The translations under genes were made by a program, and so were the position numbers. A model generated the notes under the pieces. That model was not told where the DNA came from. It made no database searches and was given only the letters and a program-made list of their open reading frames with translations. 64,000 nucleotides of DNA from Sphingomonas naphthae (GTDB taxonomy: Bacteria > Pseudomonadota > Alphaproteobacteria > Sphingomonadales > Sphingomonadaceae): positions 1,674,001 through 1,738,000 of the forward strand of contig NZ_CP117411.1 of the NCBI RefSeq assembly GCF_028607085.1. The letters are read 5' to 3'. Shown in pieces: positions 8,609-58,643 of this stretch (position 1 is its first letter; each line of letters starts with the position of its first letter).

Positions 8609-9455
8609 GTCCTCGCCTTCACCTGAGAAATTGTCGCCCGGCCTCTATATCGTCGCGACCCCGATCGGCAATCTCGGCGATCTCTCGCCGCGCGCCGCCG
8701 ACATTCTTTCGCGCGCCGACGCCATCGCGGTGGAGGACAGCCGGGTCACCGCCAAGCTGATGCACCATATCGGCGCCAGGCGGCCGATGCTGCCCTATCA
8801 CGATCATAATGCCGATCGGGTGCGGCCGGGGCTGATCGAGCGGATGGCGCATGAGGCAGTGGCCTTGGTGTCGGACGCGGGAACGCCGCTGATCTCCGAT
8901 CCGGGCTTCAAGCTGGTGCGCGACGCGCGGGCGGCGGGGCATGTGGTGGTGACGATCCCCGGCCCCTGCGCGGCGATCGCGGCGCTGACATTGGCGGGGT
9001 TGCCGACCGACCGCTTCTTCTTCCTGGGCTTCCTGCCGCCGAAGGAGAAGGCGCGGGCGGAAGCGATCGCCGAGGTGGCGGCGATCCGCGCGACATTGAT
9101 CCTGTACGAGAGCGGACCGCGTCTGGGCGCGACCCTGGCGGCGCTGGCGGCAGGCTTGGGCGAGCGCGAGGCGGGTGTCGCGCGCGAGATCAGCAAGGCT
9201 TATGAGGAATGCGTGACGGGCACGCTGGAGACGCTGGCGGCGCGCTATGCCGAGGCGGGGCCGAAGGGCGAGATCGTGATCGTCGTCGGCCCGCCGGGCG
9301 AGGTGAAGCCGGCCGATCTGGATGCCGATACCCTCTTGGCCGAGGCGCTGACCCGCCTGCCCGCCGCCAAGGCCGCCAAGGAGGTGGCGCAGGCGACCGG
9401 CCTCCAGCGGGCCGACCTGTACGCCAAGGCGCTGGCGTTGAAGGACAAGGCGTGA
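8607..9455 (+). CDS. rsmI: 16S rRNA (cytidine1402-2'-O)-methyltransferase
   Basis: RsmI methylates the ribose of C1402 in the ribosomal decoding centre using SAM. The protein starts with the family signature LYIVATPIGNLGDLSPRA, followed by VEDSRVTAKL, SDAGTPLISDPG (SAM site) and PGPCAAIAAL, and ends with a small C-terminal domain. From the ATG at 8607 it has 282 residues, the usual size. That ATG shares the tetranucleotide CATG with the start codon of the divergent lipoprotein gene, so the promoter must lie inside that gene. An alternative ATG is at 8595. Confidence 0.93.
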   Translation: MSSPSPEKLSPGLYIVATPIGNLGDLSPRAADILSRADAIAVEDSRVTAKLMHHIGARRPMLPYHDHNADRVRPGLIERMAHEAVALVSDAGTPLISDPGFKLVRDARAAGHVVVTIPGPCAAIAALTLAGLPTDRFFFLGFLPPKEKARAEAIAEVAAIRATLILYESGPRLGATLAALAAGLGEREAGVAREISKAYEECVTGTLETLAARYAEAGPKGEIVIVVGPPGEVKPADLDADTLLAEALTRLPAAKAAKEVAQATGLQRADLYAKALALKDKA

Positions 9456-9805
9456 GGGATCGGGCCGCCGCCGAACGCCGGGGCCGTACCGCCGAGCGGG
9501 CGGCGGGCTGGTGGTTGCGGCTGAAAGGCTTCCGCATCCTCGACCGGCGCGTGCGGACGCCGGTGGGCGAGATCGACCTGATCGCCAAGCGCGGCGCCCT
9601 CGTCGCCTTCGTCGAGGTGAAATCGCGCGCGACCGATGCCGAACTGGATTTCGCGATCGATCACCGCCGGATGAAGCGGGTCGCGGCGGCCGCCGAGGCG
9701 GTGGCGCATCGCTACGCCGGACCGGCGGACGATATCCGCATCGACGTGATCCTGCTCGCGCCGGGGTGCCGGCCGCGCCATCTGGAGAATGTGTGGCATG
9801 GGTGA
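9452..9805 (+). CDS. yraN: YraN family (UPF0102) nuclease-like protein
   Basis: This 117-residue protein starts with GTG at 9452, overlapping the rsmI stop (GTGA arrangement). It carries the YraN signature: a basic first helix (AERRGRTAERAAGWWLRLKG), then GEIDLIAKRG and FVEVKSR, the E-D-ExK pattern of restriction-endonuclease-like folds. The biological role of the family is not settled. The rsmI-yraN pair is conserved in proteobacteria and gshB follows. The stop codon lies inside a repeat element at 9800-9843. Confidence 0.9.
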   Translation: MRDRAAAERRGRTAERAAGWWLRLKGFRILDRRVRTPVGEIDLIAKRGALVAFVEVKSRATDAELDFAIDHRRMKRVAAAAEAVAHRYAGPADDIRIDVILLAPGCRPRHLENVWHG

Positions 9806-9843
9806 GGATCCTCCCCTCCAAGGGGAGGATCATTAAGATCGTG
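9800..9843. repeat. Short palindromic repeat after yraN (GGGTGAG...CTCCCCT...AGGGGAG family)
   Basis: The segment begins GGGTGAG, carries a CTCCCCT/AGGGGAG hairpin and ends with ATCATTA. About 45 bp are clearly similar to the element at 11700-11743 inside imuB. In both places the element's TGA is the stop codon of the upstream gene (yraN here, imuA there). Confidence 0.65.
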
Positions 9844-9904
9844 ACGAGGGTGACATGAAGCCCCCGCCTCCCTATCTCCCGCACACCTCATCGGGAGTAT
9901 CGGA

Positions 9905-10852
9905 ATGGCCCTGAAGATCGCGGTTCAGATGGATCCGCTCGAGACGATCAACATCGCGGGCGATTCCACCTTCGCGATCATGCTCGCCGCGCAGGCGCGC
10001 GGGCACCAGCTGTGGCATTATGCGGCGGGCGACCTCACCTATCGCGACGGGCGACTGAAGGCGCCGGCGCGCGCGGTGACGGTGCGGCGGATCGCGGGCG
10101 ACCATGTCGATTTCGGGGGGTGGGAAACGCTCGATCTGGGCGCCGACGTGGATGTCGTGCTGATGCGGCAGGATCCGCCGTTCGACCTGGCCTATATCAC
10201 CGCGACCCACCTGCTGGAGCGCATCCAGCACGAGACTTTGGTGGTGAACGACCCCGCCGCCGTGCGCAACGCGCCCGAGAAACTGTTCGTGCTGGATTAC
10301 GCGCAGTTCATGCCGCCGACGATCATCACCCGCCATCTGGAGGAAACCCGCGCCTTCCATGCCGAGCATGGCGAGGTGGTGGTGAAGCCGCTGTACGGCA
10401 ATGCGGGATCGGCGGTGTTCCATGTCGGGCGGGCGGACGCCAATCTGGCGGCGCTGACCGAATTGTTCGGCCAGGTGTGGCGCGAACCCTTCATGGTGCA
10501 GGCGTTCCTGCCCGACGTGTCGAAGGGCGACAAGCGCATCGTGCTGATCGACGGCAAGCCGGCCGGCGCGATCAACCGCCTGCCCAAGGCCGGCGAAATC
10601 CGATCCAACCTGGCCGCCGGCGGCCGCGCCGACGCCACCGACCTGACCCCGCGCGAGCAGGAGATCTGCGCGGCTCTTGGGCCCGAGCTGGCCAAGCGCG
10701 GGCTGCTGTTCGTGGGGATCGACGTGATCGCGGGATATCTGACCGAAATCAACGTGACCTCGCCGACGGGGATCGTGGCGATCGACAAGTTCAACGGGAC
10801 GGATACCGCCGGGCTGATCGTGGAGACGATCGAGGCGAAGGCGCGGGGGTGA
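9905..10852 (+). CDS. gshB: Glutathione synthetase
   Basis: GshB joins gamma-glutamylcysteine and glycine with ATP in the cytoplasm, the second step of glutathione synthesis. The 315-residue sequence matches throughout: MALKIAVQMDPLETINIAGD, LMRQDPPFDLAYITATHLLE, VNDPAAVRNAPEKLF, then the ATP-grasp domain with VVKPLYGNAGSAVF, IVLIDGKPAGAINRLP and the C-terminal TEINVTSPTG. A ribosome site (CGGGAG) lies 6 nt before the ATG. It follows rsmI-yraN, with a palindromic repeat between. Confidence 0.97.
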   Translation: MALKIAVQMDPLETINIAGDSTFAIMLAAQARGHQLWHYAAGDLTYRDGRLKAPARAVTVRRIAGDHVDFGGWETLDLGADVDVVLMRQDPPFDLAYITATHLLERIQHETLVVNDPAAVRNAPEKLFVLDYAQFMPPTIITRHLEETRAFHAEHGEVVVKPLYGNAGSAVFHVGRADANLAALTELFGQVWREPFMVQAFLPDVSKGDKRIVLIDGKPAGAINRLPKAGEIRSNLAAGGRADATDLTPREQEICAALGPELAKRGLLFVGIDVIAGYLTEINVTSPTGIVAIDKFNGTDTAGLIVETIEAKARG

Positions 10853-47411: not shown

Positions 47412-47425
47412 GATAATGCATTGTG
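47412..47425. promoter_or_regulatory. Candidate GntR operator upstream of the HTD2-type hydratase gene
   Basis: GATAATGCATTGTG shares 12 of 14 bases with the perfect palindrome GATAATGCATTATC at 55505-55518 and the core ATAATGCATT with the site at 58303-58316. It lies 61 bp upstream of the hydratase ATG and could overlap a -10 (GATAAT). Proposed ligand: the GntR protein encoded at 56294-56992. Confidence 0.6.
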
Positions 47426-47485
47426 CAGCATCATCGTCGAAGTAGAAGCCGATCCGATACGTTCGGTCGATGGGTGAGGACAGGC

Positions 47486-48328
47486 ATGAGCAACGATTTT
47501 TCCGCATGGGCCGGTCGCAGCGAGCAGGCCATCGACACGCTCGAACCCGCCCGCTCCAACGCCCTGAACGCCGCGACCGGCGATCTTGCGGTCGGCGCCG
47601 CCGGCGATCCGCTCCCCCTCCTCCACCATTGGCTCTATTTCTGGGATGTCCGCCCGCCCGAGGGGCTCGGGATCGATGGCCACCCCGCGCGCGGCGGTTT
47701 CCTGCCACCGGTGCCGCTGCCCCGCCGCATGTGGGCCGGCGGTCGCCTGAAATTCCTCCAGCCGCTCCTCCTCGGCGAGCAGGTCGCGCGCACATCGACC
47801 ATCCTCAAGGTCGAGGCCAAAAGCGGCAAGACCGGCGATCTCGTCTTCGTCACCGTCCGCCACGAACTGACCGGCGGCGCCGGCCTCGCGATCGTCGAGG
47901 AACAGGATATCGTCTATCGCGGCGCGGCGGCGCCCGGCTCGATCGCCCCAACCGCCACCGGCATCGCCCCCGGCGCGGCGAGCTGGCGGCAGGATGTGCT
48001 ACCCGATACGATTCTGCTGTTCCGCTACTCGGCGCTCACGATGAACGGCCACCGCATCCATTACGACCGCCCCTATGCGATCGACGAGGAAGCCTATCCC
48101 GCTCTGGTCGTCCACGGCCCGTTGCAGGCGACCTTGCTGGCGGCGCTGGCCACGAAGAACGTCGCCGCACCCGTCACCGGCTTCGATTTCCGCGGCCAGT
48201 CGCCCGCCTTCGACGGCGTTCCGCTGCACGTCTGCGGCGGACCGACCGAAGACGGCGCGAGCCTCTGGACCGAACAGGGCGGCACCAGGAACATGGTCGC
48301 CACGATCCGCTGCGGGGCCGCCGCTTGA
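47486..48328 (+). CDS. HTD2/mesaconyl- or itaconyl-CoA hydratase-type MaoC-like enzyme
   Basis: 280 residues of the HTD2-like double hot-dog family: LLHHWLYFWDV, PPVPLPRRMWAGGRL, SALTMNGHRIHYDRPYA and LVVHGPLQATLL (the H-R-I-H-Y-D active-site block). Known relatives are mesaconyl-C4-CoA hydratase and bacterial itaconyl-CoA hydratase. Start MSNDFSAW has GAGGA upstream. It overlaps the CitE-type lyase gene by 4 bp, giving a hydratase-lyase pair as in itaconate/citramalyl-CoA degradation. Actual substrate inferred only. Confidence 0.82.
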   Translation: MSNDFSAWAGRSEQAIDTLEPARSNALNAATGDLAVGAAGDPLPLLHHWLYFWDVRPPEGLGIDGHPARGGFLPPVPLPRRMWAGGRLKFLQPLLLGEQVARTSTILKVEAKSGKTGDLVFVTVRHELTGGAGLAIVEEQDIVYRGAAAPGSIAPTATGIAPGAASWRQDVLPDTILLFRYSALTMNGHRIHYDRPYAIDEEAYPALVVHGPLQATLLAALATKNVAAPVTGFDFRGQSPAFDGVPLHVCGGPTEDGASLWTEQGGTRNMVATIRCGAAA

Positions 48329-49134
48329 GCGCCCTGCCCCGCAGCTGGCTCTTCACCCCCGGCTCGCGGCCCGATCGCTTCGCCAAGGCGGCGGCGACAG
48401 GCGCGGACGCGTTGATCCTCGATCTGGAGGATGCCGTCGCCGAGGATCGCAAGGTCGAGGCGCGGGGCCATGTGATCGCCTTCCTCGACAGCGCGCCCGC
48501 CATCGCCCAGGCCATCGCCGTGCGGATCAACCCGCTCGGCCGCGCGGTCGGGCTGGAGGATCTCGCCGCGCTGGCCCGACTATCCCGCGCGCCGGACTAT
48601 ATCCTCGTTCCCAAGGCCGAGGAGCCCGCCGAACTGGCGCTGGTCGCGCGGGTGCTGGACGATGCCGGCTCGACCGCGCGGATCGCCGCGCTGGTCGAAT
48701 CCGCGCGCGGCATCGCCAACGCCCCCGCCCTCGCCCGCGCTACGCCGCGCCTTGCCGCGATGCTGTTCGGCGCGGCGGATTATGCGGCGGACCTCGGCCA
48801 GCAGGTCGGCAGCTTCCAGCCCGATTTCGCCCGCGCCGCGCTCGTCAACGCCGCCGCCGGCGGGGGCGTGATCGCGATCGATTCGCCCTTCTTCGCGATC
48901 GATCGGCCCGACGATCTCGCCGCCGAATGCGGCAAGGTCCGCGCGCTCGGCTATCAGGGCAAGGCCGCGACCCACCCCGCCCAGCTCGATCCGATCAACG
49001 CCGCCTTCGCGCCCACCGCAGACGAACAGGCCCTCGCCCGCCGCATCCTCGCGGCGGCGCCCGATGGGGTCGGCGTGCTGGACGGCAAGATGATCGACAT
49101 CGCCATGGTCCGCTGGGCGCGCCGCATCGCCTGA
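48325..49134 (+). CDS. CitE-like CoA-ester lyase
   Basis: 269 residues of the HpcH/CitE aldolase family: WLFTPGSRPDRFAKAAATGA, LILDLEDAVAEDRK (Mg-binding acidic residues), VRINPLG, ALVESARGIANA and AIDSPFFAI. Members cleave malyl-, methylmalyl- or citramalyl-CoA to acetyl-CoA (or propionyl-CoA) plus a 2-oxoacid. The TTG start overlaps the hydratase stop (TTGA). With the upstream hydratase this would hydrate and split a C5-type unsaturated acyl-CoA. Confidence 0.88.
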   Translation: MSALPRSWLFTPGSRPDRFAKAAATGADALILDLEDAVAEDRKVEARGHVIAFLDSAPAIAQAIAVRINPLGRAVGLEDLAALARLSRAPDYILVPKAEEPAELALVARVLDDAGSTARIAALVESARGIANAPALARATPRLAAMLFGAADYAADLGQQVGSFQPDFARAALVNAAAGGGVIAIDSPFFAIDRPDDLAAECGKVRALGYQGKAATHPAQLDPINAAFAPTADEQALARRILAAAPDGVGVLDGKMIDIAMVRWARRIA

Positions 49135-49140
49135 GCCGGC

Positions 49141-50079
49141 TCAGCCCGGCACATAGCCCTGATGAACCAGCGGCAGGCCCGGTCGCGGCCAGTCCACCGC
49201 CACCAGCATCCCATATCCCGAGAGGGTGATATAGGCCGTCCGCATGTCCGGCCCGCCGAAGCAGATGTTGGTGCAATAAGGCTCGGGTGCCTCGTGAAAT
49301 TCGATCAGGCCACCCTCCGGCGAGAACACGCTGATCCCGCCATGGACGAGGCTGGCGACGCAGATATTGCCGTTCGCCTCGACCGCCATGGAATCGAACC
49401 GCTGATAGCCCTGCGATCCGCCGACGAAGCGGCCGCCGTGCGGGCTCGGCCAGGCTTCCTTGGCCAGTTCGCCCCGGCCCGTGATCGGCCACGCCCACAG
49501 CCGCCCCGTCTCGGTTTCCGAAGCGTAGAGCGTCCGCCCGTCGGGCGAGAGGCCGCAGCCGTTGGGGGTGATGACCGGAAAGGCCGCCTCGCGGATGAAG
49601 CTGCCGTCGAGCGCGGCATAGTAAAGCGCGCCGCGATCCATCAGCCGGTCATAGCTCTTGCCATGATCGGTGAACCAGAAGCCGCCCTTGCCATCGAACA
49701 CGATGTCGTTGGGCCCCATGATCGGGTTGCCGTCGCATTCGGTGTAGAGCGTTTCCACCGCGCCGGTCACCAGATCGACCCGCTGGATGCTGCCGCCGGT
49801 ATAGCGATCGGCGCGGCCGTGCGGGCGGGAGAAGCCGTCGTCATGGTGGATCCAGTTGAACCCGCCATTGTTGCAGACATAGCATAGGCCATCCGGCCCG
49901 ATCGCGGCGCCGTTCGGCCCGCCACCCAGTTCGGCCGCCACCGCCTTCGTGCCGTCGCGCAGCACGCGGATCAGCCGCCCGCCCTCGATCTCGACCACCA
50001 GCACCGATCCGTCGGCCATGGCGATCGGGCCTTCGGGGAATTTCAGGCCGCGCGTGATCTCGCGATAGTCGAGTTTCAT
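49141..50079 (-). CDS. SMP-30/gluconolactonase family lactonase
   Basis: 312 residues of a six-bladed beta-propeller lactonase: GLKFPEGPIAMADGSVLVVE (metal-binding Glu), GGPNGAAIGPDGLCYVCNNG, MGPNDIVFDGKGGFWFTDHG (Asn ligand) and RFDSMAVEANGNICVA (Asp ligand). It hydrolyses lactones with a divalent cation. In this island it could open the lactone made by the Baeyer-Villiger enzyme. It converges on the CitE gene with 6 bp between, and follows the dehydrogenase gene by 4 bp. Confidence 0.88.
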   Translation of the reverse strand: MKLDYREITRGLKFPEGPIAMADGSVLVVEIEGGRLIRVLRDGTKAVAAELGGGPNGAAIGPDGLCYVCNNGGFNWIHHDDGFSRPHGRADRYTGGSIQRVDLVTGAVETLYTECDGNPIMGPNDIVFDGKGGFWFTDHGKSYDRLMDRGALYYAALDGSFIREAAFPVITPNGCGLSPDGRTLYASETETGRLWAWPITGRGELAKEAWPSPHGGRFVGGSQGYQRFDSMAVEANGNICVASLVHGGISVFSPEGGLIEFHEAPEPYCTNICFGGPDMRTAYITLSGYGMLVAVDWPRPGLPLVHQGYVPG

Positions 50080-50083
50080 GGCC

Positions 50084-50962
50084 TCACGCCTTTCCGATCA
50101 GTTCGATGATCGCGGGGAAATATTTCGCGCCGATCCCCTGTTCGACCGCGGCCCGATAATATTCGCCCGCCAGCTTCGACATGCGCGCGTCGACGCCGGT
50201 GCCCTCGGCCATCTCGATCGCATAGCCCAGATCCTTGAGGACATAGGGCGAGGGGAAGGCCTTCTCCGGGAAGTCGCGCGGCAGCATCGCCTTCATCCCG
50301 TGATTGCGCAGCGCGAAGCTGTCGGCCGAGCTGATCGCCAGCACGTCGAGCAAGGTCGCCGGCGGCACCCCGGCACGCTCGGACACGACCATCATCTCGG
50401 CCAGCGCCGCGACATGCTCGAACAGCAGGCTGTTGTTGACGAGCTTCACCACCTGCCCGCAGCCGACTTCGCCGCAGCGGGTCACGTCGGTCCCCATGTA
50501 GCGCAGCACCGGCTCGATCCGCGCGAACAGCGCCTCGCTGGCCCCCACCATGATGCTGAGCGTGCCGGCGTCCGCCGCCGCCCGCGCCCGCGCGACGGGC
50601 GCGTCGGCGAAGGCGATGCCCTTGTCCGCCAGCGCCGCATGCACCGCGCGCGCCTCGTCCACGCCGGTCGTGCTGAGATCGACGACGATCGCGCCCGGCC
50701 GGGCCTGCGCGGCGATCTCCTCGCACACCGCCGCCACCTGCTTGCCGCCGGGCAGCGAGAGCAGGACGATGTCCGCCTTCGCCCCGATCTCAGGGACCGA
50801 GGCCGCCGCCACCGCGCCCGCCGCGACGGTCGCCGCCAGTGCCTCGGGGTTCATGTCATAGGCAAGGACCGTGCCGCCATGCTTGGCCGCGACGTTGCGC
50901 GACATGCCGCCGCCCATCGCGCCCAGGCCGATGAAGCCGATCGTGGGAAGGGGATGGCTCAT
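50084..50962 (-). CDS. Beta-hydroxyacid dehydrogenase (3-hydroxyisobutyrate dehydrogenase family)
   Basis: 292 residues with the N-terminal Rossmann fold GFIGLGAMGGGMSRNVA, the substrate-binding DAPVARARAAADAGTLSIMVG (family norm DAPVSGG, here modified to DAPVARA) and the catalytic lysine in GCGQVVKLVNNS. Oxidises 3-hydroxyacids or reduces the semialdehydes with NAD(P). The change from SGG to ARA next to the substrate site may signal an unusual substrate. Co-transcribed with the SDR upstream (7-bp gap) and the lactonase. Confidence 0.9.
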   Translation of the reverse strand: MSHPLPTIGFIGLGAMGGGMSRNVAAKHGGTVLAYDMNPEALAATVAAGAVAAASVPEIGAKADIVLLSLPGGKQVAAVCEEIAAQARPGAIVVDLSTTGVDEARAVHAALADKGIAFADAPVARARAAADAGTLSIMVGASEALFARIEPVLRYMGTDVTRCGEVGCGQVVKLVNNSLLFEHVAALAEMMVVSERAGVPPATLLDVLAISSADSFALRNHGMKAMLPRDFPEKAFPSPYVLKDLGYAIEMAEGTGVDARMSKLAGEYYRAAVEQGIGAKYFPAIIELIGKA

Positions 50963-50969
50963 GGCCGCC

Positions 50970-51722
50970 TCAATCCATCAACATGCCGCCGTTGATGTCG
51001 AGCGTGGTCCCGGTGATCCAGTTCGACTGCGGCGAGCAAAGGAAGAGAATGCCCTGGGCGATATCCTCGGGCTGACCATAGCGGCCGAGCGGGACATTGC
51101 CGTTGGGCGAGGGTGGCGCGCGATCGGTACAGGCCTCCCACATCGGCGTCTCGACCGGGCCGGGGGCGACGATATTGGCGTAGACGCCCTTGGAAGCGCC
51201 CGATTTCGCCACCCATTTCATGATACCATGCACCGCCGACTTGGCCGCGACATAGGCCGGGCCGGACTGGACCCCGCCGATCTTGGCCGCGATCGATCCC
51301 AGCGCGACGATCTTGCCATAGGCCTGCTCCACCATCAGCGGATAGATTTTCCGCAGGGGGTTCACGACGCCCATCACATTGATCTTGTAGATGCGATCCC
51401 ATTCGCCATCGCTCGCCACGTCGAGCGACTGGTTGGAGATGGCGCCCGCGCACAGCACCAGCGAGTCGATCCGGCCATGCTTCGCCAGCACAGCCGCAAC
51501 GACGCTTTCGGTCGCCTCCATGCTGGTCACGTCATAGCGGTGATAATCGACCTTCGCTTCGCCCGCGAAGGGATTGGCCTCGACCAGATCGGTCGCGATC
51601 ACGGTGGCGCCGGCGGCGAGGAAGCTGCGGACGATCTCGCTGCCGATGCCGCCCGCCGCGCCGGTGACAAAGGCGATCTGCCCGTCGAGCCGGGGCGGGG
51701 CACTGATCGGAATATTGACCAC
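50970..51722 (-). CDS. SDR family oxidoreductase
   Basis: 250 residues of classical SDR type: VTGAAGGIGSEIVRSFLAAG, CAGAISNQSL (NAG-like), catalytic serine in ALGSIAAKIGG, Y-x3-K in AYVAAKSAV, PGPVETPMW and the C-terminal TLDINGGMLMD. The GTG at 51722 is preferred because AGAGGAA lies 9 nt upstream; a GTG at 51746 is possible. It is most like the 3-oxoacyl-ACP reductase-type SDRs used in catabolic clusters. Confidence 0.9.
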   Translation of the reverse strand: MVNIPISAPPRLDGQIAFVTGAAGGIGSEIVRSFLAAGATVIATDLVEANPFAGEAKVDYHRYDVTSMEATESVVAAVLAKHGRIDSLVLCAGAISNQSLDVASDGEWDRIYKINVMGVVNPLRKIYPLMVEQAYGKIVALGSIAAKIGGVQSGPAYVAAKSAVHGIMKWVAKSGASKGVYANIVAPGPVETPMWEACTDRAPPSPNGNVPLGRYGQPEDIAQGILFLCSPQSNWITGTTLDINGGMLMD

Positions 51723-51775
51723 GAAACTGTTCCTCTCTCTCTCCACCCCGCGCCCTCATGGAGCACAGGGTCCGT

Positions 51776-52972
51776 TCAGTAGATCACGCCGTCGTCCTGC
51801 AGGTTCTGCCGCTCGCGATCGGTCATTTCCAGCAGCTCGCCGAACACATGATCCTCATGCTCGCCCAGCTTCGGCGTACCACGCGCGATGCCGATCTCGG
51901 GGCCTTTCGACAGCATCATCGGCACGCCGACGGCGGCGCGCTCCTTGCCGTCGGGCTCGGCCACGTCGACGATCGCGCGGCGGGCGCGCAGATGCGGGTC
52001 GGCGGCGATCTCGGGCGTCGTCCACGAGGCGTGGGCGGCGATGCCGGCGGCCTGCAAGGTCTCGGCCGCCAGATCGGCCGGCAGGGTCGCGCTCCACACC
52101 GCCACCACCTCGTCGATCGCGGCGCGGTTGGCGTGGCGCGCGACGGCGGTGGCGAAGCGCGGATCGTCGGCCAGTTCGGGCGCATGCATGATCCCGGCCA
52201 TCGCCCGCCATTCCGCATCGCTGCCCAGCGCGATCGACAGCCAGCGATCCTGCCCCTCGGCCGGGTAGACACCGTGCGGCGCCATGCGTGGATGATCGTT
52301 GCCGGTGCGGTGCAGTTCGCTGCCCGCCGCCGCCAGCAAAAGCGCCTCGCCGAGCAGCGACGACGACACCTCGCGCGCCGAGACGTCGACCAGCCCGCCC
52401 TGCCCGGTCGCGCGCCGCCGGTGCAGCGCCGCCATCACCGCGACCGCCGCGTTCATGCCGACGGTATGGTCCATCACATGGCGCATCTCGATCGGCGGGC
52501 CATCGGCATAGCCGCTCATCTCGCCCAGCCCGCCCCACGCGCCGAACAGGGGCGCATAGCCAGCGAAATGCGAATCCGGCCCGCTCTGCCCCGACGAGGA
52601 CACGCACAGCATCACGATATCGGGCTTCACCGCCGCCAGCGCGGCATAGCCGAGCCCCAGGCGCCCGATCACCCCCGGACGAAAGCTCTCCGCCGCCACG
52701 TCGGAAATGCCGACCAGCCGTTTGGCGAGCGCGATGCCCTCGGGCTTCTTGAGGTTGATCCGCACCGACAATTTGGTCGAGGCGACCTGATCGAAGGTCG
52801 CGGGCCCCATGCGGCCATAGACCGGATGCGGCTTGCGGAAGGCATCGGGCCGCATCGCGCTCTCGATCTTGATGACCTCCGCGCCGAGCTGCGACAGCAG
52901 ATGGGTGCAGAACGGCCCGGCATTGTGGACCGTGAAATCGGCGATGCGGATACCGGCCAAGGGCTTCGCCAT
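51776..52972 (-). CDS. Family III CoA-transferase, catalytic-type subunit
   Basis: 398 residues of the CaiB/BaiF family: LAGIRIADFTVHNAGPFCTH, GAEVIKIES, NLKKPEGIALAKRL, and the active-site aspartate at D168 (HVMDHTVGMNA), equivalent to Asp169 of formyl-CoA transferase. It moves CoA between carboxylic acids. The gene is 1 bp from the next CoA-transferase gene, whose product lacks this Asp; together they look like a heteromeric enzyme similar in concept to BbsE/BbsF of benzylsuccinate degradation. Confidence 0.9.
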   Translation of the reverse strand: MAKPLAGIRIADFTVHNAGPFCTHLLSQLGAEVIKIESAMRPDAFRKPHPVYGRMGPATFDQVASTKLSVRINLKKPEGIALAKRLVGISDVAAESFRPGVIGRLGLGYAALAAVKPDIVMLCVSSSGQSGPDSHFAGYAPLFGAWGGLGEMSGYADGPPIEMRHVMDHTVGMNAAVAVMAALHRRRATGQGGLVDVSAREVSSSLLGEALLLAAAGSELHRTGNDHPRMAPHGVYPAEGQDRWLSIALGSDAEWRAMAGIMHAPELADDPRFATAVARHANRAAIDEVVAVWSATLPADLAAETLQAAGIAAHASWTTPEIAADPHLRARRAIVDVAEPDGKERAAVGVPMMLSKGPEIGIARGTPKLGEHEDHVFGELLEMTDRERQNLQDDGVIY

Positions 52973-52973
52973 G

Positions 52974-54122
52974 TCAGCCCCCCACCCGGGCGCGGCGATA
53001 TTCGCCGAGCGCCGGAGGACCGCCGTTCAGCACGAGCGGCCCGCCATCGAAATGGAAGGGCGACACCAGCATGTCGAGCGTGCCGGCGCCGTCGATCGCG
53101 ACCGGCTGGAACAGGCCGCGCACCGCCTCGTGCGGATCGCGCACCACTTCGGCCGGCGTGTAATATTTGGCGAGCGGGACGCTCAGCGCCTGCCCGTCGC
53201 GCACGATATCCTCCACCTTGCGGACCTTGGCCCAGGCGCGGATATGCCCGTTGATCTCCGGCCCGCGCCGGCTGCGCTCCAGCGAATCCGCCAGTGCCGG
53301 ATCGAGCGCCCAGGCCGGCTCGCCCAGCAGCTTGACCAGACCGTCCCACTGGCGCTGCTCCAGGGTCAGCAACTCCACATAGCCGTCGGCGCAGGGCAGC
53401 ACCCCGCCATAGCGGAACGAGCGTTCGATGCGATGCTCGACCGATCCGTCGCCCAGCCGCTGGATGGCGAAGGCGCCCACCGCCAGCGCGGCATCCTGCG
53501 ACGCGACATCGACATATTGCCCGCCCAATTCCGGCCGCACCCACAGCGCCGACAATGCCCCCAGCGCCGCCGCGATGCCCCCCTGCATCGAGGCGAAATG
53601 GCCGAAGATCTTGACCGGCGGCCGTTCCGGGAAAAGCTCGATCGACAGGCCGTTGGGCAGCAGATTGCCCTCGCCCGAGGCGTGCTGGAGGTTGATCTCC
53701 TCCGCCTTCCAGTCCGCCTTCGGCCCGCTCGCCCCGAACGGCAGCAGCGATACGTGGATGAGATCGGGATGGCGCGCCGCCACGCCCGCCTCGTCCAGCC
53801 CCAGTGCCTCGCGATCGGCCAGCGGCGTATCGTCGATGAAGATGTCGCTCTCGCTCAGCAGCGCCGCCGCCCCGGCCCGGCCCCCGGCCGTGTCGAGATC
53901 GGCGACGATGCTGCGCGCGCCGGCCGTGAGATAGGCGAACAGCGCGCTCACGCCGTCCGTCTTCTCCAGAAATGGCGCCTCACGCCGCAGCGGCGATCCG
54001 GCGGGGCCTTCGAGCAGGATCGTCTCTGCGCCCATCGTGCCGAGCATCCGCCCCGCATAGGCGGCCGCCACGCCCGCAGCGCGCACGACCACCCGCAGGC
54101 CCGTCAAGGGTGCGTTCGCCAT
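52974..54122 (-). CDS. Family III CoA-transferase, Asp-less partner subunit
   Basis: 382 residues: LTGLRVVVRAAGVAAAYAGR, GAETILLEGPAGSPLRRE and VDVASQDAALAV place it in the CaiB/BaiF family. At the aligned catalytic position (ten residues after the conserved Pro-Pro, four before Gly) it has A177 instead of Asp (KIFGHFASMQGG). It is therefore probably inactive alone and works with the catalytic-type subunit encoded directly downstream. Gap to that gene is 1 bp; gap to the upstream MaoC-type gene 23 bp. Confidence 0.82.
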   Translation of the reverse strand: MANAPLTGLRVVVRAAGVAAAYAGRMLGTMGAETILLEGPAGSPLRREAPFLEKTDGVSALFAYLTAGARSIVADLDTAGGRAGAAALLSESDIFIDDTPLADREALGLDEAGVAARHPDLIHVSLLPFGASGPKADWKAEEINLQHASGEGNLLPNGLSIELFPERPPVKIFGHFASMQGGIAAALGALSALWVRPELGGQYVDVASQDAALAVGAFAIQRLGDGSVEHRIERSFRYGGVLPCADGYVELLTLEQRQWDGLVKLLGEPAWALDPALADSLERSRRGPEINGHIRAWAKVRKVEDIVRDGQALSVPLAKYYTPAEVVRDPHEAVRGLFQPVAIDGAGTLDMLVSPFHFDGGPLVLNGGPPALGEYRRARVGG

Positions 54123-54145: not shown

Positions 54146-55348
54146 TCAGCGCACCACGGGCAGGTCGAGGTCGAGGTTCGATCCGTCGACGAACACCTTG
54201 ATGTTCGGATCGAGCGACGGGAGCACGACAGTCGCCAGACCCGGCGTGGTCAGCTCGCCGCGCTGGTTCTCGCCGGTGATCTCGATATCGACCAGCGCGT
54301 GGCCATCCTTCACATATTTGCGCGTCACCTTACCGCGCGCCCAGGTGCAGTCGCCCATCGTGTTGAAGCGGCTCATGCGGGTGCGGATGCGCTTCAGGAA
54401 GCCCGCGTCGCCCATCCAGTTGGTGATGAAGCTCGCCATCCACGCCGAACGCTGGGGGCCGTAATCATACACGCCCGGAACGCCCACTTCCTTGGCGGTG
54501 GATTCGCGGTGATGGCCGATGCCGGTATATTCGATGCCGCCGCCGGCCTCCGGGTTGCGGAAGAAGTGGCCGGGGTGCTTGACGGCATTCTTGAAGATCA
54601 CGCCATGGGTATGGCCCCGGCCGCAGCCGACGAGGAAGCCCATCGTGTCCATCAGGCTCAGCGGCCCGCGCACGATCTCGGGCAGGATTTCGCCTTCCTG
54701 CACCTCTTCCCAATAGCGGACCGTGCCGCCGCGCATGTTCTTCTCCTCGTCGAGGATGGCGGCGTCGATCTTCGCGAATTCGTCTGCGGTATATTCGTGC
54801 GTCTTGATGTCGGCATATTTGCCGGCCTCGCGCGCGGCCTTGCGCTCGTGGCGGGTGCAGGTGCCGAGCGCGCGGGCGACCAGCTCGCCGCGCTGGTTGT
54901 AATAGCTCGCCTCGACATATTGCAGCACGAGCGTGCCCGAGAACTGACTCTCCTTCACGTCCACGCCGACGACGCGCTCGATCGCGCTGATGCGATCGCC
55001 GGGGCGGACGTGGCGATACATCTCCCAATCGTTGCCGGCATAGAAGCCGTGGACGCCCGGCAGGCCCCAGCGCGTGCGGCCGACCCAGCCGAAAGCCATT
55101 GGGAAGTTCGGGTGCGCCAGCATCGATCCGTGGCGCGTCAGCCGGCCCACCTCCAGATCGCGATACAGCGGGTTCAGATCGCCGATGCCGTTGCAGAAAT
55201 TGCGGATCGTGTCCTCGGTGGCGTCCTGGAGATAGGGGCCTTCGGGGCGCAGCTGCATCCCGATCATATTCTCGGCCGCCTTGATCGCCTCCGGCGTGAT
55301 CTTGCCCTCGGCCGGCGCCGACCCAACGTCCTGTTCGGAAATGCTCAT
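54146..55348 (-). CDS. MaoC-like acyl-CoA hydratase/dehydratase (double hot-dog)
   Basis: 400 residues with two hot-dog domains: the first has FCNGIGDLNPLYRD and RHGSMLAHPNFPMAFGW, an FAS1-like dehydratase N-terminal domain, the second includes YDYGPQRSAWMASFITNWMG. Members hydrate 2-enoyl-CoA type substrates. It starts the minus-strand operon that runs through the two CoA-transferase subunits, an SDR, a dehydrogenase and the lactonase. A candidate GntR operator lies at 55505-55518, 157 bp upstream. Confidence 0.85.
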   Translation of the reverse strand: MSISEQDVGSAPAEGKITPEAIKAAENMIGMQLRPEGPYLQDATEDTIRNFCNGIGDLNPLYRDLEVGRLTRHGSMLAHPNFPMAFGWVGRTRWGLPGVHGFYAGNDWEMYRHVRPGDRISAIERVVGVDVKESQFSGTLVLQYVEASYYNQRGELVARALGTCTRHERKAAREAGKYADIKTHEYTADEFAKIDAAILDEEKNMRGGTVRYWEEVQEGEILPEIVRGPLSLMDTMGFLVGCGRGHTHGVIFKNAVKHPGHFFRNPEAGGGIEYTGIGHHRESTAKEVGVPGVYDYGPQRSAWMASFITNWMGDAGFLKRIRTRMSRFNTMGDCTWARGKVTRKYVKDGHALVDIEITGENQRGELTTPGLATVVLPSLDPNIKVFVDGSNLDLDLPVVR

Positions 55349-55715: not shown

Positions 55716-56297
55716 TCAGGCGGCGAAATCGAACTCGGCGCTGTTCACGATCTTCGCAAACCGGCCGAGGCAGGCGATCGCATGCATATGCTCGTCCGGC
55801 GTCACGCCCGCGCAGCAATCCTCGAGGATGATGCATTCGTAATCGCGGTCATGCGCCTCGCGCGCGCCCGAATGGACCACGCCGTTGGTCGAAACGCCCG
55901 ACAGGATCACCCGCTCGATCCCGTTGACGCGCAGGATCGGCTCCAGCGACGTGCCGTAGAACGGGCTGACGCGATGCTTGACGATGTCGAAGTCGCCCTC
56001 CTCCGGGGCGATCGAGGCATGAACTTCGGTGCCCCAGGTGCCGAGCTTGAAGATGCCGTTGTTCCGCGCGCCCGAGAAGATCGGCGAGGCGGGCGGGCAT
56101 TCGCGATAGTCGGATGAGAAGCCGACGCGGACGTAGCCGATCCTCACCCCCGCCGCGCGGGCCGCCGCGATCGCCTTAGCGGTGTTCGGGAGCACGTTGC
56201 GCTCCCTGACCTGAACCCCATAGGTCTTGGCGTTGAAGCCGTTTTCGTCGACCAGGTCGTTCATCATGTCCATGGCGAGGAACAGGGATTTCTTCAT
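55716..56297 (-). CDS. Isochorismatase-fold hydrolase without the catalytic cysteine
   Basis: 193 residues with the Rossmann-like isochorismatase fold: D10 in FLAMDMMNDLVD, K107 in IVKHRVSPFYGT and the GVSTNGVVHSGAREAHD loop. In cysteine amidohydrolases this loop reads GVxTNxCV; here the Cys position is V140, so a nicotinamidase/biuret-hydrolase-type thiol mechanism is not available. Isochorismatase proper also lacks the Cys. Its reaction in this island is unknown. The ATG overlaps the GntR stop by 4 bp. Confidence 0.85.
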   Translation of the reverse strand: MKKSLFLAMDMMNDLVDENGFNAKTYGVQVRERNVLPNTAKAIAAARAAGVRIGYVRVGFSSDYRECPPASPIFSGARNNGIFKLGTWGTEVHASIAPEEGDFDIVKHRVSPFYGTSLEPILRVNGIERVILSGVSTNGVVHSGAREAHDRDYECIILEDCCAGVTPDEHMHAIACLGRFAKIVNSAEFDFAA

Positions 56298-56992
56298 GGG
56301 CTTGAACTCTCCATCAGATGTTTGGCCGAAAATTTCGCGGGCGGCTCGCCGGGGTCGGCGGCCTGCACCGAGGCGCGCAATTCCATCCAGCCGGCCTCGA
56401 TATGCTGGCGGGTCGCCAGCATCACCGCCGCCACGTCCGACGCGATGAACGCGCGGAGCAATTCCTCATGCTCCTCCGCCGCCCGGCTCACCCGGCCCTT
56501 GAGGCGGTTGATGAGGTCGAACGGATAGCGCGCCCACAATATCTGCACGAAATGCAGCGTCTGCGGCATGCGCGCGATCTCGTACATGCGGTGGTGGAAA
56601 CGGTAGTTGGCCGCCCGCGCCGTCTCGTTGTCGCCCGCGTCGAAGGCATGTTCGAACTCGGCGGCCAGCACGCGCAATTCCTCGATATCCTTGCCCGTCG
56701 CCCGCTCGACCGATCCGCGCACCAGTTGCGTCTCGAGCAGGATGCGCAGGTTCAGCGTCTCGCTGGAGGCGCTGATGTCGAACGGCGCCACGGTCGCCCC
56801 GCGATAGGAATCGCCGGTCACATAGCCTTCGGCCACCAGCAGCTTCAGCGCCTCGCGAACCGGCGTGATGCTCGTCTGGAGGAGCGTGGCGATCTCCTGC
56901 TGTTTCAGGCGGGTGCCGCGCGGAAAGCGCCCGGCGATGATGCCCTCGCGAAGATAATCGGCGACCTGCTCTTCCTTCGTCCGATAGTCCAT
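56294..56992 (-). CDS. GntR family (FCD domain) transcriptional regulator
   Basis: 232 residues: winged helix at residues about 5-70 (VADYLREGIIAGRFPRGTRL, LLQTSITPVREALKLLVAEG) and the FCD effector domain (LRILLETQLVRGSVERATG, NYRFHHRMYEIARMPQTLHF with the metal-binding His residues). FCD regulators bind carboxylates or acyl-CoA-like ligands. It is in the middle of a CoA-transferase - gntR - hydrolase operon whose promoter carries the candidate operator at 58303-58316, so autoregulation is likely, with two more sites at 47412 and 55505. Confidence 0.93.
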   Translation of the reverse strand: MDYRTKEEQVADYLREGIIAGRFPRGTRLKQQEIATLLQTSITPVREALKLLVAEGYVTGDSYRGATVAPFDISASSETLNLRILLETQLVRGSVERATGKDIEELRVLAAEFEHAFDAGDNETARAANYRFHHRMYEIARMPQTLHFVQILWARYPFDLINRLKGRVSRAAEEHEELLRAFIASDVAAVMLATRQHIEAGWMELRASVQAADPGEPPAKFSAKHLMESSSP

Positions 56993-57052: not shown

Positions 57053-58279
57053 TCAGCCTTTCTGCCGCACCGGCGCCCAGGCGAAATCGCCCGGCTCCGC
57101 CTGCTTCACCGCCCGGCTCGCCAACATCGCGTCGCGCGCCGCCGCGTCGTAGCCGAGGCTTTCCAGCACCTCGACGCTATGCTCGCCCAGCTCCGGCGGG
57201 GGCAGGCCGGGCACCACGTCGGTCGTCGCCGCCCCGGGAAATTCCGGCACCTCGAAGCGCAGCCCCCGGAAATCCAGATCGCGCAGCTTGCCCGGCTGGC
57301 GCGCCTGCGGCACGTCGAGCACGCGCTCCAGCGGCATCACCTCGTTGAAGCCGACACCCCCGGCGCGCAGCTTCGCCTCGGCCTCGGCATAGCTCAACGC
57401 GCCGATCGCCGCCCGCACCGCCGCCTCGACCCGGAGGCGCTGCTTCTTGCGATCGCGCAGCTTCGCCAGATCGGGATCGTCCGCCTCGGCCATGGCGAGC
57501 GAGCGCGTCAGCCTCGCCCAATGCGCGTCGGTCAGCACCAGCAGATAGAGCCAGCGGCCGTCCCGCGTTTCATAGGCGCCATAGCCCGGCATCGCGAACT
57601 CGCCCCCGGCCTCCTTCTCGGGCCGGCCGAGCAATTGCGTCTTGAGCTGCACCCCCGCCAGATCGCGCGCGGCCAGATGCAGCCCCGTCTCGTACAGCCC
57701 GATCTCGATCCGCCGGTCGGCCGGGGTCGGCTCCGGGTTGAGCATCGTCGCGAGGATGCGGATCACCGAATAGGTGCCGGCGAACTGGTCGTGATAGGAT
57801 GGCCCCAGCCGGCTCGGCCGCCCGTCGATGCGGTGATCGTCCATCACCCCGGTCGAGGCTTCCGCCACCGGATTGGTCGCCAGATCCTCGGCCAGCGGCC
57901 CGGCGGCATAGCCGCGCACATGGCAATAGATGATCGCCGGGTTGAGCGCCGCGATATCGTCCGCCGATACCTTCAGCTTGCGCGCCGATCCCGGCGCCAG
58001 ATTGTGGATGAACACGTGGGCCGTCGCGATCAGCCGGGCGAACGCCTCGGCGCCCTCGGGCGAGGCCAGATCGATCGCGACGCTCTTCTTGCCATGGCTG
58101 TAGGCGATCAGGGTGCCACTCGGGCCGCCACGCACCAGCGCCCGCGTCGTGTCCCCGGTCAGCGGCTCCACCTTGATGACCTCCGCGCCCAGCTGCGACA
58201 GGATATGCGTCGCGAAGGGTGCCGCGACCATCGTGCCGAGTTCCACCACGCGCCGGCCGGAAAGAGACTGGTGATCCAA
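57053..58279 (-). CDS. Family III CoA-transferase (complete catalytic form)
   Basis: 408 residues of the CaiB/BaiF family: SLSGRRVVELGTMVAAPFAT, GAEVIKVEPLTGDTTR, SVAIDLASPEGAEAFARL and the catalytic aspartate D164 in RLGPSYHDQFAGTYS. The TTG at 58279 is preferred (GAAGGG 6 nt upstream); the upstream ATG at 58312 lies inside the promoter. First gene of an operon with gntR and the isochorismatase-fold gene. It may activate the pathway substrate with CoA from succinyl-CoA or an intermediate. Confidence 0.9.
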   Translation of the reverse strand: MDHQSLSGRRVVELGTMVAAPFATHILSQLGAEVIKVEPLTGDTTRALVRGGPSGTLIAYSHGKKSVAIDLASPEGAEAFARLIATAHVFIHNLAPGSARKLKVSADDIAALNPAIIYCHVRGYAAGPLAEDLATNPVAEASTGVMDDHRIDGRPSRLGPSYHDQFAGTYSVIRILATMLNPEPTPADRRIEIGLYETGLHLAARDLAGVQLKTQLLGRPEKEAGGEFAMPGYGAYETRDGRWLYLLVLTDAHWARLTRSLAMAEADDPDLAKLRDRKKQRLRVEAAVRAAIGALSYAEAEAKLRAGGVGFNEVMPLERVLDVPQARQPGKLRDLDFRGLRFEVPEFPGAATTDVVPGLPPPELGEHSVEVLESLGYDAAARDAMLASRAVKQAEPGDFAWAPVRQKG

Positions 58280-58302
58280 AATGCGCCCTTCGATGCTGTG
58301 CC

Positions 58303-58339
58303 GATAATGCATTATATATATCGCATCCGATCTTGGCAA
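58303..58339 (-). promoter_or_regulatory. Promoter with overlapping GntR-type operator
   Basis: On the minus strand TTGCCA (58339-58334) and TATAAT (58316-58311) are separated by exactly 17 bp, a strong sigma-70-like promoter. The candidate operator GATAATGCATTATA (58303-58316) covers the -10 and start point, suiting repression. The transcript would start near 58304 and lead into the CoA-transferase TTG at 58279. Confidence 0.75.
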
Positions 58340-58382
58340 TCGGCGCAGCGGACAGGCAGGCGATCGGGTATCAAGCATCGCC

Positions 58383-58643
58383 ATGGCGCGAAAACGGCGA
58401 TACCTCACGGCCACCCTGCCCGATGGCTACGTCAAGACGATCGGCCCCACGGCCGATCCCTTCACCCATTATTGGCGGATCGTCGCCACACTCGCCGACG
58501 GCAAGACCGAGGTGTTCTGGGGCCATGCCAAATCGCTGGCCGAAGCGCGCAAGACCCGTGTCTCGGTCGTCGAGGCCGCCCGCAAGCGCGGCTGGGCGAA
58601 TTACACGATCGATATCGTCGAACTGGTCGAAACCGCGCCCTGA
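58383..58643 (+). CDS. Small conserved hypothetical protein
   Basis: 86 residues, basic: MARKRRYLTATLPDGYVKTI, FTHYWRIVATLADGKTEVFW, AKSLAEARKTRVSVVEAARK. The pattern of a short beta-sheet and a helix does not match a family I know. The gene is divergent from the CoA-transferase gene but codon use and its plus-strand continuation to trhO suggest it belongs to the chromosome backbone. Confidence 0.65.
   Translation: MARKRRYLTATLPDGYVKTIGPTADPFTHYWRIVATLADGKTEVFWGHAKSLAEARKTRVSVVEAARKRGWANYTIDIVELVETAP

Follow-up and report, generated by a model that had tools for sequence, protein, structure and literature searches.

Two adjacent genes in the window, the 64,000-nucleotide stretch of the Sphingomonas naphthae genome analysed here, encode homologous CoA-transferases, and only one of them has the catalytic Asp. 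Do the two proteins make up one enzyme with a working and a dead site, and what would such an enzyme do? We consider it very probable that the products of these genes, A and B, assemble into a single family III (Frc/CaiB) CoA-transferase, a BbsEF-type heteromer in which A is catalytic and the site of B is dead. We infer the physical complex, its chemistry and its CoA donor, and, from the neighbouring genes, its substrate.

Gene pair and sampling of related loci

Gene A (51776..52972, minus strand), the predicted catalytic subunit, encodes 398 amino acids, and gene B (52974..54122, minus strand), its partner subunit without the Asp, encodes 382. The CoA_transf_3 domain (PF02515, cut-off 23.3 bits) spans the full chain of both, with 308 bits for A and 205 bits for B. 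The two CoA-transferase genes share a strand and are, as the initial annotation had stated, 1 bp apart, with a lone base (52973..52973, minus strand) between the TGA stop of B and the ATG start of A. That annotation had called A the first protein. The adjacency holds, but A is the downstream gene and B is transcribed before it.

A pattern derived from ten sequences was scanned against 84,980 species genomes and yielded 121 relatives. The best 80 of these, together with plasmid and genome loci and after removal of one duplicate record, make up the 88 loci compared below. Some are near-copies of each other (L066/L067, L045/L070, L047/L076 and L049/L053), so the counts are of loci and not of independent events. 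As L062 (titled Actinobacteria) and L066 (titled planctomycete) come from metagenome assemblies, their titles were given no weight in judging the host. A adjoins B in 85 of the 86 loci in which B was scored; the sole non-adjacent score is from L079, where A is frameshifted yet still lies beside B. The two genes overlap by 4 bases in 59/85 related loci, against the 1-base gap in the window.

Within the window's genome, B alone has no Asp among 12 full CoA_transf_3 domains, a count that excludes one open reading frame whose two partial CoA_transf_3 matches are not scorable. At L013/L014 (C1:971715-972860) of this genome, a 593-codon open frame has two partial CoA_transf_3 matches, and the Asp region falls opposite a gap. 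The genome also holds a second adjacent pair of family III CoA-transferases (L004/L010, C1:2543597-2545884), both with Asp.

The catalytic position in A and B

The expected CoA carrier of A is Asp168 (codon 52469..52471, minus strand), within the motif RHVMDH. The closest PDB chain to A is 9fn0_B of BbsEF (phmmer, 185 bits). Asp168 aligns to residue 178 of this chain, and the PDB title of entry 9fol names a 'D178-CoA adduct'. The position is Asp in 88/88 A sequences (87 loci plus the window; the A of L079, split over two frames by the frameshift, is omitted), which bears out the earlier claim that A keeps this residue.

B had been described as having Ala177 opposite Asp168. Ala177 (codon 53592..53594, minus strand) is present and the site has no Asp, but the true counterpart is Ser178 (codon 53589..53591, minus strand), one residue further on in the motif GHFASMQGG. 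Ala177 was rejected as the counterpart because all three kinds of alignment give Ser178: the B family profile against that of A (hhalign), the B profile against the PDB (hmmsearch), and MAFFT. In the comparison with the PDB, residue 178 (consensus Glu) is matched to the Asp in 4ed9, 10uh and 4hl6.

Across 87 B sequences (86 loci plus the window), position 178 is Glu in 44, Gly in 18, Ser in 12, Ala in 9, Gln in 3 and Thr in 1, and Asp in none. The joined open reading frames of L106 and L122 are omitted from this count; read separately, their B parts have Gln and Glu at the site. The surroundings are much more uniform, with Phe176 and Gly182 constant, Gln180 in 84/87 and Gly181 in 85/87. Mapped on a tree of these 87 B sequences, the six states of residue 178 require at least 19 changes, and A168 is invariant. 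A residue that drifts in this way is unlikely to serve as a nucleophile. An Asp elsewhere in the active site of B, which the initial annotation had named as evidence against its proposal, was not seen in the alignments either. Glu is the residue chemically nearest to Asp, and some of the B subunits that have it might retain residual function; the B in the window has Ser. With Asp in 0/87 sequences, B is a member of the family by fold and not an active enzyme by motif, and of the two proteins only A has the counterpart of the catalytic Asp of Frc (D169).

Further losses and conserved loops in B

The Asp is not the only family-kept residue that is gone from B. Lys35, Arg104 and Gly224 are constant in 92/92 A domain copies, and among 121 other family III domains Lys/Arg occurs at 35 in 118, Lys/Arg at 104 in 107 and Gly at 224 in 106. 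The 93 B copies have Leu/Met at 35 in 85, Ala (55) or Arg (13) at 104, and Thr/Glu at 224 in 76, among the top four residues per column and with copies of the window genes from several loci included. By formyl-CoA transferase, Lys35 and Arg104 of A presumably contact CoA. Arg98 and Asn225 are likewise constant in A and mostly missing from B. They were rejected as general losses, as only 38/121 and 56/121 of the other domains have them.

The claim that the rest of the B fold is intact holds for the backbone, with a monomer model at pLDDT 82.5 and pTM 0.80, but not for the residues that most of the family keeps. Compared with the BbsEF chains, the B model gives a Z of 32.5, tied with other family members (32-33). 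Its main low-confidence parts (residues 143-163, 166-173 and 222-235) lie in or next to conserved loops, which would fit loops that become ordered only against a partner.

B nevertheless has a conserved character of its own. His147, Glu151, Asn157, Lys171, Arg231 and Arg234 are each kept in at least 97% of the 87 sequences, and many of its most conserved residues lie in two loops, GEGxLLPNGL and SFRYGG. For comparison, the active centre of YfdE has a GNxH loop, according to the accessible portion of PMC5592240. There are 123 invariant columns among ten B sequences, and over nine pairs dN/dS is 0.09-0.24 for B and 0.07-0.24 for A. By these measures B is under purifying selection, with no decay. 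The initial annotation had cast B as the structural subunit. The strong conservation of its own loops suggests that B is probably not merely structural.

Descent and relation to BbsEF

The 69-row maximum-likelihood tree has a branch (100/99) that sets apart 21 Asp-less rows, and it gathers the 21 Asp-bearing partners of these rows in a single clade (100/100). Both groups are present in 100% of 200 bootstrap trees, and a 64-row tree gives 100/99 for the Asp-less rows and for the partners. B sits with 9fn0_A, the BbsEF chain that has no Asp, and A sits with 9fn0_B, the chain with Asp178; both BbsEF chains entered the trees as fragments. The branching of the two halves is mirrored: BbsEF, L141 and L019/L021 (90/87 and 97/86) stand opposite a group made up of the L124/L130 fusion, L048 and the window family, for which support is weaker (92/69 and 87/69). 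This matching placement of both chains indicates that A-B is a BbsEF-type heteromer by descent and not by resemblance alone. The earlier proposal of a heteromeric family III CoA-transferase like BbsEF thus gains support from the tree grouping, from the closest chain and from two natural fusions described below. As the tree is unrooted, gain and loss of the Asp are not separable by the tree itself, and the simplest reading is that the Asp-less subunit would have arisen once.

At the site, the Asp-less BbsEF chain has Tyr by search alignment and MAFFT, and Glu by the B-profile alignment; none of them gives Asp. Of the 121 family III domains that belong to neither the A nor the B group, 114 have the Asp, in a non-random sample gathered by likeness to B and BbsEF. 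The seven without it are from L019, L021, L048, L072 and the extra genes of L121, L124 and L130, of which the L072 gene and the L121 extra gene are not in the 69-row tree. Searching 299 genomes with the Asp-less BbsEF chain fragment returned 30 loci, in which 30/30 scored domains have Asp. L141, one of these loci, has a pair with an Asp-less member that falls below the coverage filter and hence outside the 306-domain set, and that is included in the 69-row tree.

More Asp-less/Asp pairs occur at L019, L021, L048 and L141, with Tyr, Tyr, Ser and Phe at the site, and their members fall on the same tree sides. A Novosphingobium locus with a B-A pair holds a second Asp-less CoA-transferase (L072:1180-2388, minus strand), which is L048-like with Ser at the site, and on the same strand an A-like gene (36%).

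Natural fusions

In Shinella lacus (L106:10001-12352), B and A are joined in one chain of 784 residues by a linker about 25 residues long. The AlphaFold model of this fused chain has a pTM of 0.88, which rests on 20 sequences, and a pLDDT of 79.2 over the 784 residues, and suggests a defined arrangement of both halves. In its structural alignment 49/50 rows match the second half, so the first half is barely covered. The same locus has two near-identical MaoC400 copies (1212-2378 and 8809-9975; MaoC400 is described below) and a third on the opposite strand.

In two Burkholderiales assemblies, a second, two-domain CoA-transferase directly follows the B-A pair (L124:12326-14809, 828 codons; L130:12023-14614, 864 codons). 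These extra genes have an Asp-less domain (Ala) followed by an Asp domain, so that the order is the same in both separate fusions (L106 and L124/L130). What appears to be the start of the same extra fused gene lies near the contig end of L121. L122 was rejected as a B-A fusion, as the C-terminus of B is out of frame in this metagenome-assembled genome.

Gene neighbourhood

MaoC400, a 400-residue MaoC-type hydratase/dehydratase (54146..55348, minus strand; PF13452), is the first gene of a MaoC400-B-A core that is the most constant part of the cluster and is found across Alpha- and Betaproteobacteria. It lies directly upstream of B in 84/86 loci. MaoC400 is also the most conserved cluster gene, 70-94% identical over the 88 loci, and has two weak matches only in the PDB (E about 0.001-0.002).

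Counts for the other neighbours, based on score thresholds over 88 loci that include short contigs, are lower bounds. Beyond MaoC400, on the minus strand, are an isochorismatase-family hydrolase (55716..56297; PF00857; at least 72/88 loci), a GntR/FCD regulator (56294..56992; PF07729 and PF00392; at least 75/88) and a third family III CoA-transferase that keeps its Asp in the motif SYHDQ (57053..58414; PF02515, 259 bits; at least 32/88). Downstream of A on this strand are an SDR oxidoreductase (50970..51746; PF13561; at least 52/88), a 3-hydroxyisobutyrate-dehydrogenase-like oxidoreductase (50084..50962; PF03446 and PF14833; at least 73/88) and an SMP-30-type lactonase (49141..50079; PF08450; at least 47/88). 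The closest PDB entries to the last are the lactonases 8djf/7ris (331 bits), for which our literature search traced no substrate. Four annotated plasmid loci have an AHL-lactonase-like gene in place of the missing SMP-30 gene.

Two genes on the plus strand converge with the operon. One encodes an itaconyl-CoA-hydratase-like (Ich-like) MaoC protein of 301 residues (47423..48328; PDB 8huc/8khg, 231/229 bits); 8khg, its near-closest entry, is named itaconyl-CoA hydratase. The other encodes a citramalyl-CoA-lyase-like CitE protein of 268 residues with an inferred start codon (48328..49134; PF03328). Its closest PDB match is 3qll ('Citrate lyase', 224 bits), which we take to be RipC of Y. pestis. 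By similarity, these two genes correspond to the itaconyl-CoA hydratase and citramalyl-CoA lyase genes of clusters for the degradation of itaconate, a C5 dicarboxylate. The Ich-like gene is present in at least 69/88 loci, the CitE lyase in at least 57/88 and both in at least 54/88.

Predicted reaction and pathway

In family III dimers the two chains interlock, and the active sites lie where they meet (PMC9813914, in the portion accessible). In the reaction that we propose, Asp168 of A would attack a donor CoA thioester, probably succinyl-CoA, hold the CoA as a beta-aspartyl thioester and then hand it to a carboxylic acid. B would complete the interlocked dimer, closing and shaping the active site of A.

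The joint presence of the Ich-like and CitE genes in so many loci suggests that this acid is probably a branched dicarboxylate rather than benzylsuccinate. No acyl-CoA dehydrogenase or thiolase, the neighbours in bbs operons, was found among the ten Pfam-scanned products and the lyase at 47.4-58.4 kb. A possible scheme would begin with lactone opening and alcohol oxidation to give the branched dicarboxylate, which A-B would activate; the CoA ester would then be hydrated by a MaoC enzyme and cleaved by CitE to an acyl-CoA and an oxo acid. Most CitE matches outside Sphingomonadales are only 33-47% identical to the window CitE, so the exact substrate need not be common to all. The host lifestyle is apparently aerobic, judging by the Sphingomonadaceae group.

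Alternative explanations

Several of the family III enzymes that have been characterised come from one gene each and are homodimers or monomers (PMC5592240, as far as its accessible text goes), and A and B could thus be separate homodimers that are adjacent by chance, A as an ordinary CoA-transferase and B with another job. This is unlikely: the natural fusions in L106 and L124/L130 argue against it, as do the grouping mirrored with both chains of the solved BbsEF heteromer, the near-universal adjacency of A and B and their frequent 4-base overlap. The distance correlation of 0.92 between A and B (85 loci) would also be produced by shared species history.

We regard as very unlikely a catalytically active B with another nucleophile, such as Glu178 or a residue of the conserved loop 147-171. 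It could draw on the frequency of Glu at the site, on the six nearly invariant residues listed above and on the use of Glu by family I CoA-transferases (noted in the available text of PMC9813914). The site residue is Ser in the window, however, and can be Gly, Ala, Gln or Thr in other loci, with the many changes counted above, and the basic residues matching Lys35 and Arg104 of A are mostly missing. The titles of PDB entries also list the Frc mutants D169A, D169E and D169S, and these mutants are reportedly inactive. That B is the product of a decaying pseudogene without a role, as the absence of the Asp and of further family-kept residues might suggest, is hardly credible given an open frame in all 87 scored sequences (the unscored B of L122 is broken at its end), the low dN/dS and the invariant columns.

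Implications

Taken together, we lean towards an old, largely unrecognised lineage of heteromers that includes BbsEF, with a single loss of the Asp, a dead half that serves specificity and at least two fusions, and in which the window branch would belong to an undescribed aerobic pathway for lactone-derived branched dicarboxylates with MaoC/CitE cleavage. In this joint reading the former catalytic position could vary freely (Tyr, Phe, Glu, Ser, Gly, Ala, Gln, Thr). The design with one dead half was already known from BbsEF; what is added here is how broad the lineage is, together with the drift of the dead site and the fusions that occur in nature. The design would not be confined to the anaerobic degradation of toluene but would occur in many Alpha- and Betaproteobacteria outside that pathway, with a history of the dead subunit that suggests one loss followed by many substitutions. 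In the natural single-chain fusions the working and dead sites are separately mutable, and the MaoC400-B-A core marks a catabolic pathway with a testable substrate.

Comparison with known systems

Our literature search, for which subscription papers were mostly out of reach, found no publication that deals with the structure of BbsEF or with this operon. Like A-B, BbsEF consists of two homologous family III subunits, one with the catalytic Asp (D178) and the other without. The identity in structural alignments is only 22-29%, however, and BbsEF has bbs-type beta-oxidation neighbours, whereas A-B has none and lies instead in a MaoC/CitE context. The A-B lineage also differs in its apparently aerobic hosts and in the occurrence of natural fusions. 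Frc, YfdE and human SUGCT share the fold of A and B, and Frc-type enzymes are encoded by a single gene. Frc and SUGCT form homodimers in which each subunit has the Asp. The accessible text of PMC5592240 gives BbsEF as alpha2beta2 and SmtAB, a family III enzyme that is heteromeric as A-B is predicted to be, as (alpha beta)6. The Asp chemistry proposed for A is that described for family III in the accessible part of PMC9813914.

The nearest parallel in gene content is the itaconate Ict-Ich-Ccl pathway, as the window likewise has Ich-like and Ccl-like genes beside CoA-transferases. Ict is a single gene (PMC12290011, in the part available), in contrast to the two subunits A and B, and to this scheme the window adds MaoC400, a lactonase, an isochorismatase-like hydrolase and dehydrogenases.
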